DNA of 57,889 nucleotides, taken from assembly GCA_005881435.1 (NCBI GenBank), contig VBHP01000096.1:1-57889 (forward strand). Direction: 5' to 3'. This stretch comes from Chloroflexota bacterium (lineage in GTDB: Bacteria; Chloroflexota; Limnocylindria; P2-11E; CF-107). Below the pieces are notes generated by a model. The model was not told the DNA's origin and ran no database searches. It worked only from the letters and a program-made list of their open reading frames with translations. The position numbers and the translations under genes were made by a program. This document shows, one piece after another, positions 2,672 to 40,921 of the stretch. Position 1 is the stretch's first letter. Every line of letters begins with the position of its first letter.

Positions 2672-3391
2672 CTAGCCGCTCGTCACGAGCGTGCCAACGC
2701 GCTCGCCCTGCACCGCGCGGACGAGGGCGTCCGGCTCGTTGAGGTCGAACACGATGGCCGGAATCCGTCGTTCGTTGGCGTGCGCCGCGGCCGTGGCGTC
2801 GATGATGCGGAGGTTGCGCGCCAGCACATCGCCGTACGTCAGCTCGTCGTACTTGCGCGCGTTCTTGTCCAGTTTCGGGTCAGCCGAGTAGACGCCATCG
2901 ACGCCGTGTTTCGCCATCAGGATGACGTCCGCGTCGATCTCGGCCGCGCGTAGGGCGGCAGCCGTGTCGGTGGTGAAGAACGGATTACCCGTGCCCGCGG
3001 CCATGATCACCACGCGACCCTTCTCGAGGTGACGGATGGCGCGACGGCGGATGTACGGCTCGGCGACCTGCTCCATCTGGATGGCGGTCTGCACCCGCGT
3101 GGGGACCTCTTGCGCCTCCAGGGCGGCCTGCAACGCCAGACCGTTGATCACGGTGGCCAGCATGCCCATGTAGTGCGCGGTCGTCTCTTCGATGCCATGG
3201 TCCGAGGTGTCGGCGCCGCGGATGAAGTTGCCGCCGCCAACGACGACAGCGACTTCGACGCCGCGGTCGTGCAGCTTCTTGATCTCCAGGGCCATGTAAC
3301 GCGTGTACGTCGGGGAGATGCCGAAGGCCTGGTCGCCCAGCATCGCTTCGCCGCTGAGCTTCAGAAGTACCCGGCGATATTTGGGCTCGAT
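2672..3391 (-). CDS. pyrH: UMP kinase, start codon apparently ATC
   Basis: PyrH phosphorylates UMP to UDP. The 239-aa frame from 3391 covers the whole family: YRRVLLKLSGEAMLGD (phosphate-binding), VVGGGNFIRG, RVQTAIQMEQVAEPYIRRRA, GTGNPFFTTDTAAALRA and GVYSADP. No in-frame ATG, GTG or TTG lies near the expected N-terminus. The first in-frame ATG (in GEAMLGD) would delete the phosphate-binding block, and upstream the frame runs inside tsf with no candidate in its last ~80 codons. The codon in the right place is ATC at 3391-3389, five bases past the tsf stop, giving (M)EPKYRR. GGAG lies only 2 bases before it and a GGGGG about 10 bases before. A base-call error is the main alternative. Confidence 0.9.
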   Translation of the reverse strand: MEPKYRRVLLKLSGEAMLGDQAFGISPTYTRYMALEIKKLHDRGVEVAVVVGGGNFIRGADTSDHGIEETTAHYMGMLATVINGLALQAALEAQEVPTRVQTAIQMEQVAEPYIRRRAIRHLEKGRVVIMAAGTGNPFFTTDTAAALRAAEIDADVILMAKHGVDGVYSADPKLDKNARKYDELTYGDVLARNLRIIDATAAAHANERRIPAIVFDLNEPDALVRAVQGERVGTLVTSG

Positions 3392-10334: not shown

Positions 10335-10362
10335 TTGACAGTTAGAACAGGCGTTCTATAGT
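10335..10362 (+). promoter_or_regulatory. SOS promoter with LexA box 1
   Basis: TTGACA (10335-10340), a 16-base spacer and TATAGT (10357-10362) form the best sigma-70 promoter in the window. Its spacer contains AGAACAGGCGTTCT (10344-10357), a GAAC-N4-GTTC operator of the Gram-positive LexA type that runs into the -10. Bound LexA would block RNA polymerase. The same arrangement, AGAACAnnnGTTC abutting the -10, occurs before rmuC and the HNH gene. Confidence 0.8.
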
Positions 10363-10377
10363 GCCGCTCTCGCGCTA

Positions 10378-10391
10378 AGAACATACGTTCG
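10378..10391 (+). promoter_or_regulatory. LexA box 2
   Basis: AGAACATACGTTCG contains GAAC-N4-GTTC. It lies 34 bp (about three helical turns) downstream of box 1, within the 5' leader of the small SOS gene, and would allow two LexA dimers to bind one face of the DNA. Confidence 0.75.
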
Positions 10392-25524: not shown

Positions 25525-26847
25525 TCATGCCCGACTGGGCTTTCGGCGCCGGGCGGCGAGAGTCATATCGGACTCACTGCCTCCGACGGCCGCGCGTGCG
25601 AGCCCCGGCACCCACAACACGTCACCCGCGGGGGTGACTACAACTGGATACACGGAGCGTACCCGTCGCGGAACTTTGGCGTCAGTAAGAACATCTTGAA
25701 CTTTGCCGCCGCCGACAAGTCGATCGCCCGGTCGCCACGCGCGTACTGACAACTCGACTTTTGGCACGCGAATGCGAAGTGACGACAGACGGTCGCCCGC
25801 TCCGGCGTCGAGGCTGAAGGCCCAATCACCCCACTCGATCGATCGCCCCGGTGTCAGGGGCGTCGGCGGCGGCGGCTCGTCCTGTTCTTGTTTCGGCCCG
25901 ATGGTCAAGCGGCGGTACTCGCGCCAGGCGACGACGCCGTGAGGGAGATCCATTCGCGCACTGCCGCGATCGTCGCGGGACAACGCCAGCAGCGCCGAAC
26001 GATGGCGCTCGGAGAGGCCGGATGCGCCGGCTCGTTCCGCGGCCAGGGCCAACGCCTCACCGGCGACGGCGTCGTCGAGCGGTAGCCGGTCCAGATCCAG
26101 CGCGACGCCCTCAGCCTTCGCCTCGAGTGCGACGTCCAGCGCGTTCGAGGCTGCGGATCGCAGCACGTCGGCCAGCAGGGCGGCGTTGTCGGCGATGCGC
26201 GACAGGGCCTCGCGGGCCTTCGGATTCAGACGCTCGAGCAGCGGCACGACGCGGAGACGGACAAGGTTGCGGGCGTATCGCTCGCTCGCGTTCGTCGGAT
26301 CGCGGACCGGACGGACGCCCATCGTCTTCGCGTAGCCGACCGTGTCGGCTCGCGTCAAGCAGAGCAACGGACGCGCCAGGTCATCGCGTCGCGGCCGCAT
26401 CGCGGCCAGGCCGAGTACGCCGCTGCCGCGGACGAGATGGAGCAGCACCGTCTCGGCCTGGTCGTCGCGGGTGTGCCCGAGCGCGATCGACTTCGCGCCG
26501 GTGCTCTTGGCCACCTGCCGCAGGAACCCATATCGAGCCTCGCGTGCTTCGGCTTCGCCACGCGGCGGCTTCGCGGCGGCGCCGTTATGGGTCGGCAGCC
26601 CGAGGGCCCGCGCCGCGCGCTCGACCACGCGCACGTCCTGTCCTGATGTCGCCCGCATGCGATGGTCGAAGTGCGCGACGTGAAGGACCAGGCCGAGCTG
26701 ACCGGACAGGGCATGGAGGATGCCCAGCAGCGCCAGCGAGTCGGGCCCGCCGGAGCAAGCGACGACGACCGGACCGGGCTCGAAGATCGAATGCGTCGCG
26801 ATGAACTCGCGAACGCGGCGCTGGATCGTGGTTGAGGTAGTCGCCAA
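25525..26847 (-). CDS. tilS: tRNA(Ile)-lysidine synthetase
   Basis: TilS converts C34 of the CAU anticodon of tRNA-Ile2 to lysidine so that it reads AUA. The 440-aa protein has the PP-loop VVACSGGPDSLALLGIL, HFDHRMRATSGQD, SIALGHTRDDQAETVLLHLVRG, RPLLCLTRADTV and PTNASERYARNLVRLRVVPLLE, then the helical and C-terminal domains (WRPGDRL). It starts with TTG only one base after the 3' end of a CAU-anticodon tRNA gene, so both share a transcript. The order tilS-ftsH is common. Confidence 0.94.
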   Translation of the reverse strand: MATTSTTIQRRVREFIATHSIFEPGPVVVACSGGPDSLALLGILHALSGQLGLVLHVAHFDHRMRATSGQDVRVVERAARALGLPTHNGAAAKPPRGEAEAREARYGFLRQVAKSTGAKSIALGHTRDDQAETVLLHLVRGSGVLGLAAMRPRRDDLARPLLCLTRADTVGYAKTMGVRPVRDPTNASERYARNLVRLRVVPLLERLNPKAREALSRIADNAALLADVLRSAASNALDVALEAKAEGVALDLDRLPLDDAVAGEALALAAERAGASGLSERHRSALLALSRDDRGSARMDLPHGVVAWREYRRLTIGPKQEQDEPPPPTPLTPGRSIEWGDWAFSLDAGAGDRLSSLRIRVPKVELSVRAWRPGDRLVGGGKVQDVLTDAKVPRRVRSVYPVVVTPAGDVLWVPGLARAAVGGSESDMTLAARRRKPSRA

Positions 26848-26848
26848 G

Positions 26849-26924
26849 TGGCTGGGGTGGGATTCGAACCCACGAACCTGGCGGTTATGAGTCGCCTGCT
26901 CTAGACCAACTGAGCTACCCAGCC
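26849..26924 (-). tRNA. tRNA with CAU anticodon (elongator Met or Ile2)
   Basis: A full cloverleaf is readable: acceptor GGCTGGG/CCCAGCC, discriminator A, D-loop with TTGG, anticodon loop CTCATAA, T-arm GTGGG-TTCGAAT-CCCAC. CCA is not encoded. The anticodon stem GGCG/CGCC with the string AGAGCAGGCGACTCATAA resembles tRNA-Ile2, while the acceptor and T-arm resemble elongator Met. The gene directly precedes tilS, whose substrate is tRNA-Ile2 (CAU), which favours Ile2 by context. Its first ten bases overlap the end of the HNH gene. Confidence 0.9.
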
Positions 26925-27421
26925 TCGGGAGATGGGAGAAGTTTAACGGCTTCGGCTGCGAGCCGAGCGCGGAATTCCTCTTCCGTCAGAACATGCTTGC
27001 GGTTGTTGCAGCGGGGACACGCGGGAATGATGTTTGAGATCGTGTTCGTGCCGCCCCTCGCAAGTGGAATTCGATGATCCGCATGGAGGGGGCCGGCTGC
27101 GCCGCAATACGCGCAACGGTTGCCGTATGACGCCACCAGTGCGATCCACGCTCGCGTCGTGAACGAGCCGGCGGCAGCCAGGGATCGAGCGCGCCTATTT
27201 TGCGCACACGTGCGACGCACTTCCGGGTACGATGCCTTATACGCGGCGATGCGCGCCCTGACGCGATCCTTGTTCCTCTCGTAGTAGAGGTGGCTCTCGG
27301 CAAGGTGCTCCTCGGGGTGGTTCTTGCGCCATCGCCGCATGCCTTCGCGCGCCTTCTCTGGATTGCGCTTCACCCAATCCCGGCCATACGCGCGCCGCCG
27401 TTCGATGTCGCGGTAGGGCAC
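26915..27421 (-). CDS. HNH endonuclease under LexA control
   Basis: The C-terminal HNH/zinc domain is complete: NRCAYCGAAGPLHADHRIPLARGG, TISNIIPACPRCNNRK, with two CxxC pairs and the catalytic His. The N-terminal half is a basic helix rich in Arg (MRRWRKNHPEEH, LYYERNKDRVRARI) suited to nucleic-acid binding. The protein is 168 aa from GTG 27421; ATG 27424 is the alternative. The -10 TACTCT ends 6 bases before the GTG, so the mRNA is probably leaderless. The stop codon is bases 8-10 of the downstream tRNA. The gene sits between two CAU tRNA genes, as would a homing-type or inserted nuclease gene. Target and role are unknown. Confidence 0.85.
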   Translation of the reverse strand: MPYRDIERRRAYGRDWVKRNPEKAREGMRRWRKNHPEEHLAESHLYYERNKDRVRARIAAYKASYPEVRRTCAQNRRARSLAAAGSFTTRAWIALVASYGNRCAYCGAAGPLHADHRIPLARGGTNTISNIIPACPRCNNRKHVLTEEEFRARLAAEAVKLLPSPEAG

Positions 27422-27427
27422 CATGGC

Positions 27428-27457
27428 AGAGTAGAACAGATGTTCTTGGCCCGTCAA
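27428..27457 (-). promoter_or_regulatory. SOS promoter with palindromic LexA box
   Basis: Minus-strand TTGACG (27457-27452), an 18-base spacer and TACTCT (27433-27428). The spacer holds the perfect palindrome AGAACATCTGTTCT (27446-27433), a GAAC-N4-GTTC LexA site touching the -10 as in the rmuC and 10.3-kb promoters. Confidence 0.75.
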
Positions 27458-27520
27458 GAGGGGGTTGACACAAGAGCGATGCCGATTTCCGCCACAAACG
27501 AACACAGCCGAGGCGCCAAC

Positions 27521-27556
27521 CAAACAAAGAGACAGCCCCGTTGCCGAGGCTGTCTC
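27521..27556 (-). terminator. Terminator after the initiator-type tRNA
   Basis: GAGACAGCC (27556-27548) pairs perfectly with GGCTGTCTC (27537-27529) around a 10-base loop, followed by TTTGTTTG. It separates tRNA transcription from the HNH gene, which has its own promoter. Confidence 0.88.
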
Positions 27557-27561
27557 CGCTG

Positions 27562-27633
27562 TTGCGGGGGAAGGACTTGCACCTTCGAACTTTGGGTTAT
27601 GAGCCCAACGTGTTACTGCTACACCACCCCGCG
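27562..27633 (-). tRNA. Initiator-type tRNA-Met (CAU) with unusual D- and T-loops
   Basis: All four stems pair perfectly: acceptor CGCGGGG with a C1-A72 mismatch, D-stem GTGT/ACAC, anticodon stem TTGGG/CCCAA around CTCATAA, T-stem GAAGG/CCTTC. The C1-A72 mismatch and three stacked G-C pairs beside the anticodon loop are initiator hallmarks. The D-loop is only 7 bases (AGCAGTA) without the G18-G19 pair, and the T-loop is TGCAAGT, with G in place of T55. CCA is not encoded. TATGCT (27644-27639) is a -10 candidate 5 bases upstream. Confidence 0.85.
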
Positions 27634-27658
27634 ATGAGAGCATAACGATACCACCGCA

Positions 27659-40902: not shown

Positions 40903-40921
40903 AGTATAGAACGCATGTTCT
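40903..40921 (-). promoter_or_regulatory. LexA box and -10 of rmuC
   Basis: Minus strand: AGAACATGCGTTCT (40921-40908) runs into TATACT (40908-40903), then 7 bases to ATG. It is nearly identical to the 10.3-kb site (AGAACAGGCGTTCTATAGT). LexA control of rmuC, and perhaps of the genes behind it, is the natural reading. Confidence 0.75.

Follow-up and report, generated by a model that had tools for sequence, protein, structure and literature searches.

The window, a 57,889-nucleotide stretch of a Chloroflexota contig, carries on its minus strand, in this order, tRNA-fMet, a terminator, a promoter with a LexA box, an HNH endonuclease gene, tRNA-Met, tilS and ftsH. Both tRNA genes that flank the nuclease gene have CAU anticodons and are complete (ARAGORN and Rfam). 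The first-pass annotation of this DNA had described the HNH gene between two CAU tRNA genes, which agrees with these results, and had also raised the idea of tRNA halves, which falls away because both are whole genes. The upstream tRNA (27561-27633), the proposed target of the enzyme, is of the initiator type, with C1xA72 and three G-C pairs in the anticodon stem. It is followed by an intrinsic terminator (27557-27528) with a 13-pair stem and a T-rich tail (-28.1 kcal/mol, z = -5.7), the strong terminator that had been claimed to precede the nuclease gene, and relatives have hairpins in the same position. The acceptor sequence GGCU of the downstream tRNA (26848-26924) identifies it as elongator tRNA-Met. 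The adjacency of tilS (25525-26847; an ORF that is syntenic in relatives and was named from sequence and context) made tRNA-Ile2 a candidate identity, which was rejected since the acceptor is that of elongator Met and the genome has a better candidate for tRNA-Ile2 in another place, a third CAU gene (L060, acceptor GGGCCCG, C4C5), which is the likely tRNA-Ile2.

The HNH gene is alone inside the spacer of about 0.64 kb between the two tRNAs. It encodes 169 amino acids (26915-27424) when read from the ATG at 27424; the GTG at 27421 is the likely start because homologues start there and the -10 element lies 6 nt upstream, and its use would give a nearly leaderless mRNA. The predicted promoter consists of a -35 element, TTGACG (27457-27452), matched in a visual alignment to the TTGNCA-like element conserved in relatives, and a -10 element, TACTCT (27433-27428), which aligns with that of relatives at a spacing of 18; a simple sigma-70 scan (9 of 12 matches) missed this promoter. 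Between the two elements lies AGAACATCTGTTCT (27446-27433, core 27445-27434), a perfect palindrome with an exact GAACN4GTTC match, in agreement with the earlier claim that the gene has its own SOS promoter with a palindromic LexA box. At its other end, the coding sequence contains the promoter of tRNA-Met (-10 element TAAACT, 26945-26940) and borrows its stop codon from the tRNA. This TAG (26917-26915) corresponds to tRNA-Met positions 8-10, as it does in genomes G027 and G028, so the gene indeed ends inside the 5′ end of the next tRNA. The tRNA-Met -10 element is found 10-16 nt upstream of the tRNA in nearly every genome, occupied or empty, and falls inside the HNH coding end when the site is occupied.

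The protein belongs to the HNH superfamily, with a PF01844 match of 51 bits (cutoff 21.4) at residues 104-144 (26993-27115), and residues C104, D116, H117, N131, C136, C139 and N140 are invariant. The AF2 model (pLDDT 90.7, pTM 0.53) has five short consecutive helices, which match 15-residue repeats, followed by the HNH domain. The best PDB match and closest solved relative of the HNH domain is the Gme HNH nicking endonuclease (4H9D), which covers the C-terminal half only and for which we know of no link to tRNA. This relative nicks DNA, and the tRNA-cleaving effector that had been suggested found no evidence. Viral matches were phage HNH endonucleases, and those in PHROGs were phage HNH and endonuclease VII families. 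A defence or abortive module, another early suggestion, gained no positive evidence: PADLOC returned only weak partial hits to the HNH domain, and no partner gene was seen among the neighbours, which are tRNAs, tilS and a divIC-like gene. The dN/dS values of the HNH gene (0.08-0.30) indicate purifying selection and are rough because dS is high, near saturation.

The gene is intergenic and lies outside introns and inteins with a complete tRNA on each side, the position of a free-standing endonuclease. A group I intron-encoded endonuclease was considered and rejected, as Rfam shows no intron in the window. The features of a tRNA-integrated genomic island, an integrase and an att duplication of the tRNA 3′ end, were not found, the flanking tRNAs being complete and different, and neither a prophage nor an integrase was seen between them.

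The locus was compared in 29 genomes of the order. The window itself comes from an uncultured Chloroflexota MAG, and the relatives that have names, CF_48 and UBA4730 among them, are Chloroflexi MAGs from soil and groundwater. In all genomes in which the fMet locus came with sufficient flanking sequence, synteny holds for bla, the divIC-like gene, fMet, Met and tilS, and the conserved order of the site is bla, divIC-like, fMet, HNH, Met, tilS and ftsH. While most genomes of four lineages have an HNH gene between the tRNAs, the site is cleanly empty in G015, G018, G024, G025 and G026, where the tRNAs are separated by 24-137 nt, and G019-G021 hold decayed remnants. The HNH gene of G003 has an in-frame stop. 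Two HNH genes each were found in G012, which has an fMet fragment between them, and in G013, G014, G016 and G023. The two fMet-HNH-Met units of G013 have identical fMet genes and lie on two contigs; we infer their tandem order, since both contigs end in the repeat. With occupied, empty, decayed and tandem sites among relatives with and without the nuclease, the arrangement is not fixed. Full-length homologues of the single-HNH protein are essentially absent from 148 other genomes of the class, where one divergent match (G104) has no nearby tRNA. In five genomes, an inverted gene matching the N-terminal region of ftsH lies between HNH and tRNA-Met or between HNH copies (L181, L184, L185, L108 and L092, from G016, G002, G014, G005 and G008; measured in G002, G014 and G016, by eye in G005 and G008).

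In AU tests on the 11 genomes with a single HNH gene, the HNH alignment rejected the tree of bla, tilS and ftsH (p = 1.2e-5), and the reverse also held. This rejection of the flanking-gene phylogeny indicates that HNH alleles turn over at a fixed site, independently of the flanks. In the flanks, the close pairs G003-G006 and G004-G010 have nucleotide identities of 0.75-0.95, as opposed to 0.42-0.67 in HNH; the drop, from about 0.85 to 0.42-0.67, is located between fMet and Met. The empty, tandem and decayed sites and the independent turnover of HNH alleles support a homing-type insert, one of the options offered in the first-pass annotation. A domesticated DNA-repair or stress nuclease, that is, an HNH gene kept vertically in the SOS response with an incidental position at tRNA genes, would account for the LexA box, the long persistence at one site and the purifying selection, but not for the losses, decay and tandem copies or for the conflict between the HNH tree and the flanks. 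With a box that is not conserved and unrelated nuclease families that repeat the tRNA adjacency, both described below, such a nuclease appears unlikely.

Exact GAACN4GTTC sites number 42 genome-wide versus 25 for the reversed control pattern, and any one gene has a probability of about 0.3% of carrying such a box by chance in the 220 nt upstream of it. The lexA gene (204 aa, PF01726 and PF00717) is itself preceded by the box GAACAAATGTTC; other boxed genes encode an ImuA-like protein with a RecA fold, a radical-SAM protein, a DEAD/HRQ1-type helicase, RmuC and a protein with a DNA-ligase domain. Since boxes precede these genes, the LexA of this organism very likely uses the GAACN4GTTC box. A Dehalococcoides LexA uses the same Gram-positive-type box. 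LexA-controlled HNH genes exist in other bacteria, e.g., those of the mycobacterial 13E12-repeat proteins, which combine HNH and SOS control as predicted here; we know of no adjacency of these genes to tRNA. Within the window, an exact box at 40909-40920 lies at the start of the RmuC gene (PF02646, 165 bits), which supports the SOS box assignment, and two exact boxes 34 bp apart (10345-10390) precede an ORF of 193 aa that matches the ATP-dependent DNA ligase domain (PF01068). Another exact box lies between dnaB and a divergent epimerase-like gene (L009 1501; contig C23:12259 of this genome, G000), and an SOS-linked dnaB would be unusual.

Conservation of the box in orthologues at the fMet-Met locus was considered and rejected, the box being present in 1 of 21 HNH genes, that of this genome. 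The HNH genes of relatives keep a promoter with a TTGNCA-like element and a TA-rich -10 that precedes the start codon by about 6 nt, a spacing that suggests leaderless mRNAs. Because this promoter is kept without a box, the LexA operator at this locus is, as far as the sequences tell, specific to this lineage. The LexA control that had been proposed is thus well supported as a sequence feature of this genome, but it is not conserved at the locus, where the other 20 HNH genes have no box.

The box is common at a sister locus, that of tRNA-Gly(CCC), with perfect boxes in six genomes (G000, G003, G005, G007, G010 and G014). In the genome studied here, as judged from individual loci around boxes, five tRNA-linked endonuclease genes have a LexA box: the HNH gene between fMet and Met, a LAGLIDADG gene before tRNA-Pro(GGG), and double-HNH genes before tRNA-Gly(CCC), between tRNA-Arg(UCG) and a truncated tRNA-Arg(ACG), and after a tRNA-Asn(GUU) that bears a group I intron. 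A boxed HNH-like start was also found at the end of contig C19. Two further genes are unboxed, a LAGLIDADG gene before tRNA-Leu(CAA), the stop codon of which lies inside the tRNA, and a decayed HNH gene before tRNA-Gly(UCC). Boxes precede 8 of the 19 double-HNH genes with upstream sequence, with no instance of the control pattern, and the probability of this happening by chance is about 8e-16, using the box density of this genome. That the box in the window is a chance LexA-like palindrome beside an ordinary HNH gene, as its absence in orthologues and the 25 control-pattern sites could suggest, is highly improbable, given that the exact, extended palindrome sits inside the promoter and that four further tRNA-linked endonuclease genes of the same genome are boxed.

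Such pairings are found repeatedly across the order, at one locus after another: Gly(CCC), Arg(UCG)/Arg(ACG), Pro(GGG), Ser(GCU) and also Leu and His. The HNH and LAGLIDADG genes beside these tRNAs are unrelated; Pfam gives weak matches for the double-HNH and LAGLIDADG proteins and PHROGs clear ones, with LAGLIDADG_3 above its Pfam cutoff for the Leu and His copies. Endonucleases of at least two unrelated folds lie beside roughly a quarter to a third of the detected tRNA genes of the order, a pattern that looks like a selfish gene set targeting tRNA genes.

Transfer RNA genes are among the most conserved genes, yet the endonuclease-linked ones turn over quickly here. Every detected tRNA gene was compared in four closely related g2 genomes (G003, G006, G004 and G010), with a tRNA considered linked when an endonuclease ORF was located within 250 nt. 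In all six genome pairs, linked tRNAs had medians of 6-13.5 substitutions and unlinked tRNAs a median of 0 (p = 0.038 to 5.9e-5 over six pairs that are not independent, for a hypothesis that arose from the data; p = 1.5e-4 with tRNA types as units). G004-G010, fetched as a replicate pair, agrees (p = 0.0067). At larger distances linked tRNAs are less distinct (G000-G003, p = 0.0057; G000-G006, p = 0.072) because all tRNAs have diverged. Comparisons at the same place gave similar pictures. Between the tRNA-His of G006, which lies beside a ccmI-like gene, and those of three congeners, 18-28 of about 72 positions differ; two empty genomes have the same Pro(GGG) sequence, whereas the occupied G003 differs from it by 20-22; and Leu(UAG) has 22-24 differences only where LAGLIDADG is present (G010), versus 4-10 among empty sites. 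The latter variation, present even among endonuclease-free sites, is an exception (loci L302, L321, L378 and L371; genomes G003, G006, G004 and G010). Some tRNAs without any endonuclease in these genomes vary too, e.g., Val(UAC) in G004.

The gene for fMet is hypervariable among relatives, with compensatory changes in its stems. Its 15 distinct sequences keep all 20 base pairs (100%) with 46 double-changed cells, and their anticodon loop is invariant, which indicates that the variable fMet genes are, from their sequences, functional recoded tRNAs and not decaying ones. No variation was found in tRNA-Met, which is equally close to HNH, among six g2 genomes. Co-inheritance of fMet and HNH alleles was considered and found no significant support: with the flanks controlled, fMet divergence does not significantly track HNH divergence (partial Mantel r = 0.20, p = 0.22), and so only a suggestive sharing of fMet stems is left, by G005 with G010 and by G001 with G006. 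The fMet of the HNH-free G024 is identical to that of the HNH-bearing G014, G016 and G027. The fast tRNA turnover, together with the tRNA adjacency and the SOS gating, would also fit an anti-phage or anti-integration guard, in which SOS-induced nucleases protect tRNA genes as common integration sites or abort infection at prophage induction. However, the search for a defence family or partner gene, the content of the spacer between the tRNAs and the missing SOS box in most copies at this locus all speak against a guard, which we consider quite unlikely.

We hypothesize instead that the HNH gene is probably one of a set of free-standing homing-type endonucleases that parasitise tRNA loci and are partly SOS-gated, a reading that draws on the position of the genes, their mobility signature, the selection on them, their link to fast tRNA change and the LexA operators. 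Cleavage, homing, immunity and damage induction would then take the following course. In alleles without the HNH cassette or with a different version of it, the enzyme would cut tRNA-fMet or the sequence next to it, and repair of the break would copy the cassette into the cut allele, while the resident fMet, altered by pairing-preserving changes, would escape cutting. In this genome, LexA would repress the HNH gene, so that synthesis of the enzyme would coincide with RecA activity and with the availability of recombinational repair. The fMet alleles that do not significantly track HNH, the fMet shared by the HNH-free G024, the invariant tRNA-Met, the 20 unboxed HNH genes at the site, the in-frame stop in G003 and the variation of Val(UAC) count against this best reading. 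As a more tentative extension, which seems possible but doubtful, the cassettes could be a natural bacterial "cleave-and-rescue", where the nuclease destroys a susceptible essential tRNA gene and the cassette carries a recoded, structure-preserving and cut-resistant tRNA. The same-place cases of tRNA-His, Leu(UAG) and Pro(GGG) support it; if true, tRNAs would be pushed to evolve rapidly, and SOS gating would couple expression to the capacity for recombination.

Free-standing homing endonucleases and the tRNA-cutting SegB are already known. SegB of phages T4 and T6 is a free-standing GIY-YIG endonuclease whose gene is flanked by tRNA genes on both sides; it cuts tRNA genes and biases how the region is inherited (PMC2988022, Table 1; PMC13096335), and it drives tandem amplification of the tRNA and nuclease gene. 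The gene in the window is likewise a free-standing endonuclease gene between two tRNA genes, and the amplification by SegB resembles the presumed fMet-HNH-Met tandem of G013. It differs from SegB in having an HNH domain instead of the GIY-YIG domain of the SegB family, in its chromosomal rather than phage location, in that cutting at this locus is predicted, and in its LexA box, a control that the cited passages on SegB do not mention. Phage-derived cassettes of tRNA and HNH, kept since the variant tRNAs resist tRNA-cutting toxins, with the nuclease travelling as a passenger and amplifying or swapping tRNAs in the manner of SegB in T6, would explain the phage-type HNH and endonuclease families and the duplicated fMet-HNH-Met and have the SegB precedent (PMC13096335). 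Nonetheless, the tRNA genes are structural, syntenic and bacterial, the anticodon loop of fMet is invariant and phage neighbours are lacking at this locus, and a phage origin of this kind is distinctly unlikely.

The homing-type reading has other parallels. Like the mob genes of T4, the gene is an intergenic HNH gene; mob genes adjoin protein genes in phages, whereas this one adjoins tRNA genes. Several T4 free-standing endonuclease genes hold embedded host promoters, which favour their retention (PMC2988022), and the tRNA-Met promoter embedded in the HNH gene is comparable. A group I intron-encoded endonuclease at the tRNA-fMet anticodon (Bonocora and Shub 2001, as cited in PMC3984707) is also aimed at tRNA-fMet; here, there is no intron and the gene lies outside the tRNA. 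Searches of the PMC open-access subset found neither the combination of LexA, a homing endonuclease and a tRNA gene nor a chromosomal set of endonucleases of several folds, spread tRNA by tRNA and accompanied by LexA operators and hypervariable tRNAs. If these nucleases target tRNA genes, they would explain mechanistically how bacterial tRNAs can evolve fast, would show that free-standing homing endonucleases aimed at tRNA genes exist in chromosomes as well as in phages and would be selfish endonucleases wired to a host SOS switch. The joint inheritance of an essential-gene target and its immune version would become testable.

Three tRNA genes at related loci have unusual structures. A group I intron (RF00028, 82 bits) is located on the minus strand of contig C46 of this genome (L194, 8896-8680), in an apparent tRNA-Asn(GUU), between anticodon positions 35 and 36, and is followed by the LexA-boxed double-HNH gene; a second tRNA-Asn was not found in this MAG. 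The sole tRNA-Arg(ACG)-like gene of the genome (L051, about 3177-3235; contig C140:14476-14534) has no T arm and scores 39.6 bits. It may be a pseudogene, an assembly fault or an odd tRNA, and congeners have a full tRNA-Arg(ACG) after the same double-HNH gene. In G024 (L222, contig C7), ARAGORN detected a tRNA-Thr(GGU) with a 201-nt insertion, and a LexA-type box and a double-HNH homologue lie just downstream.
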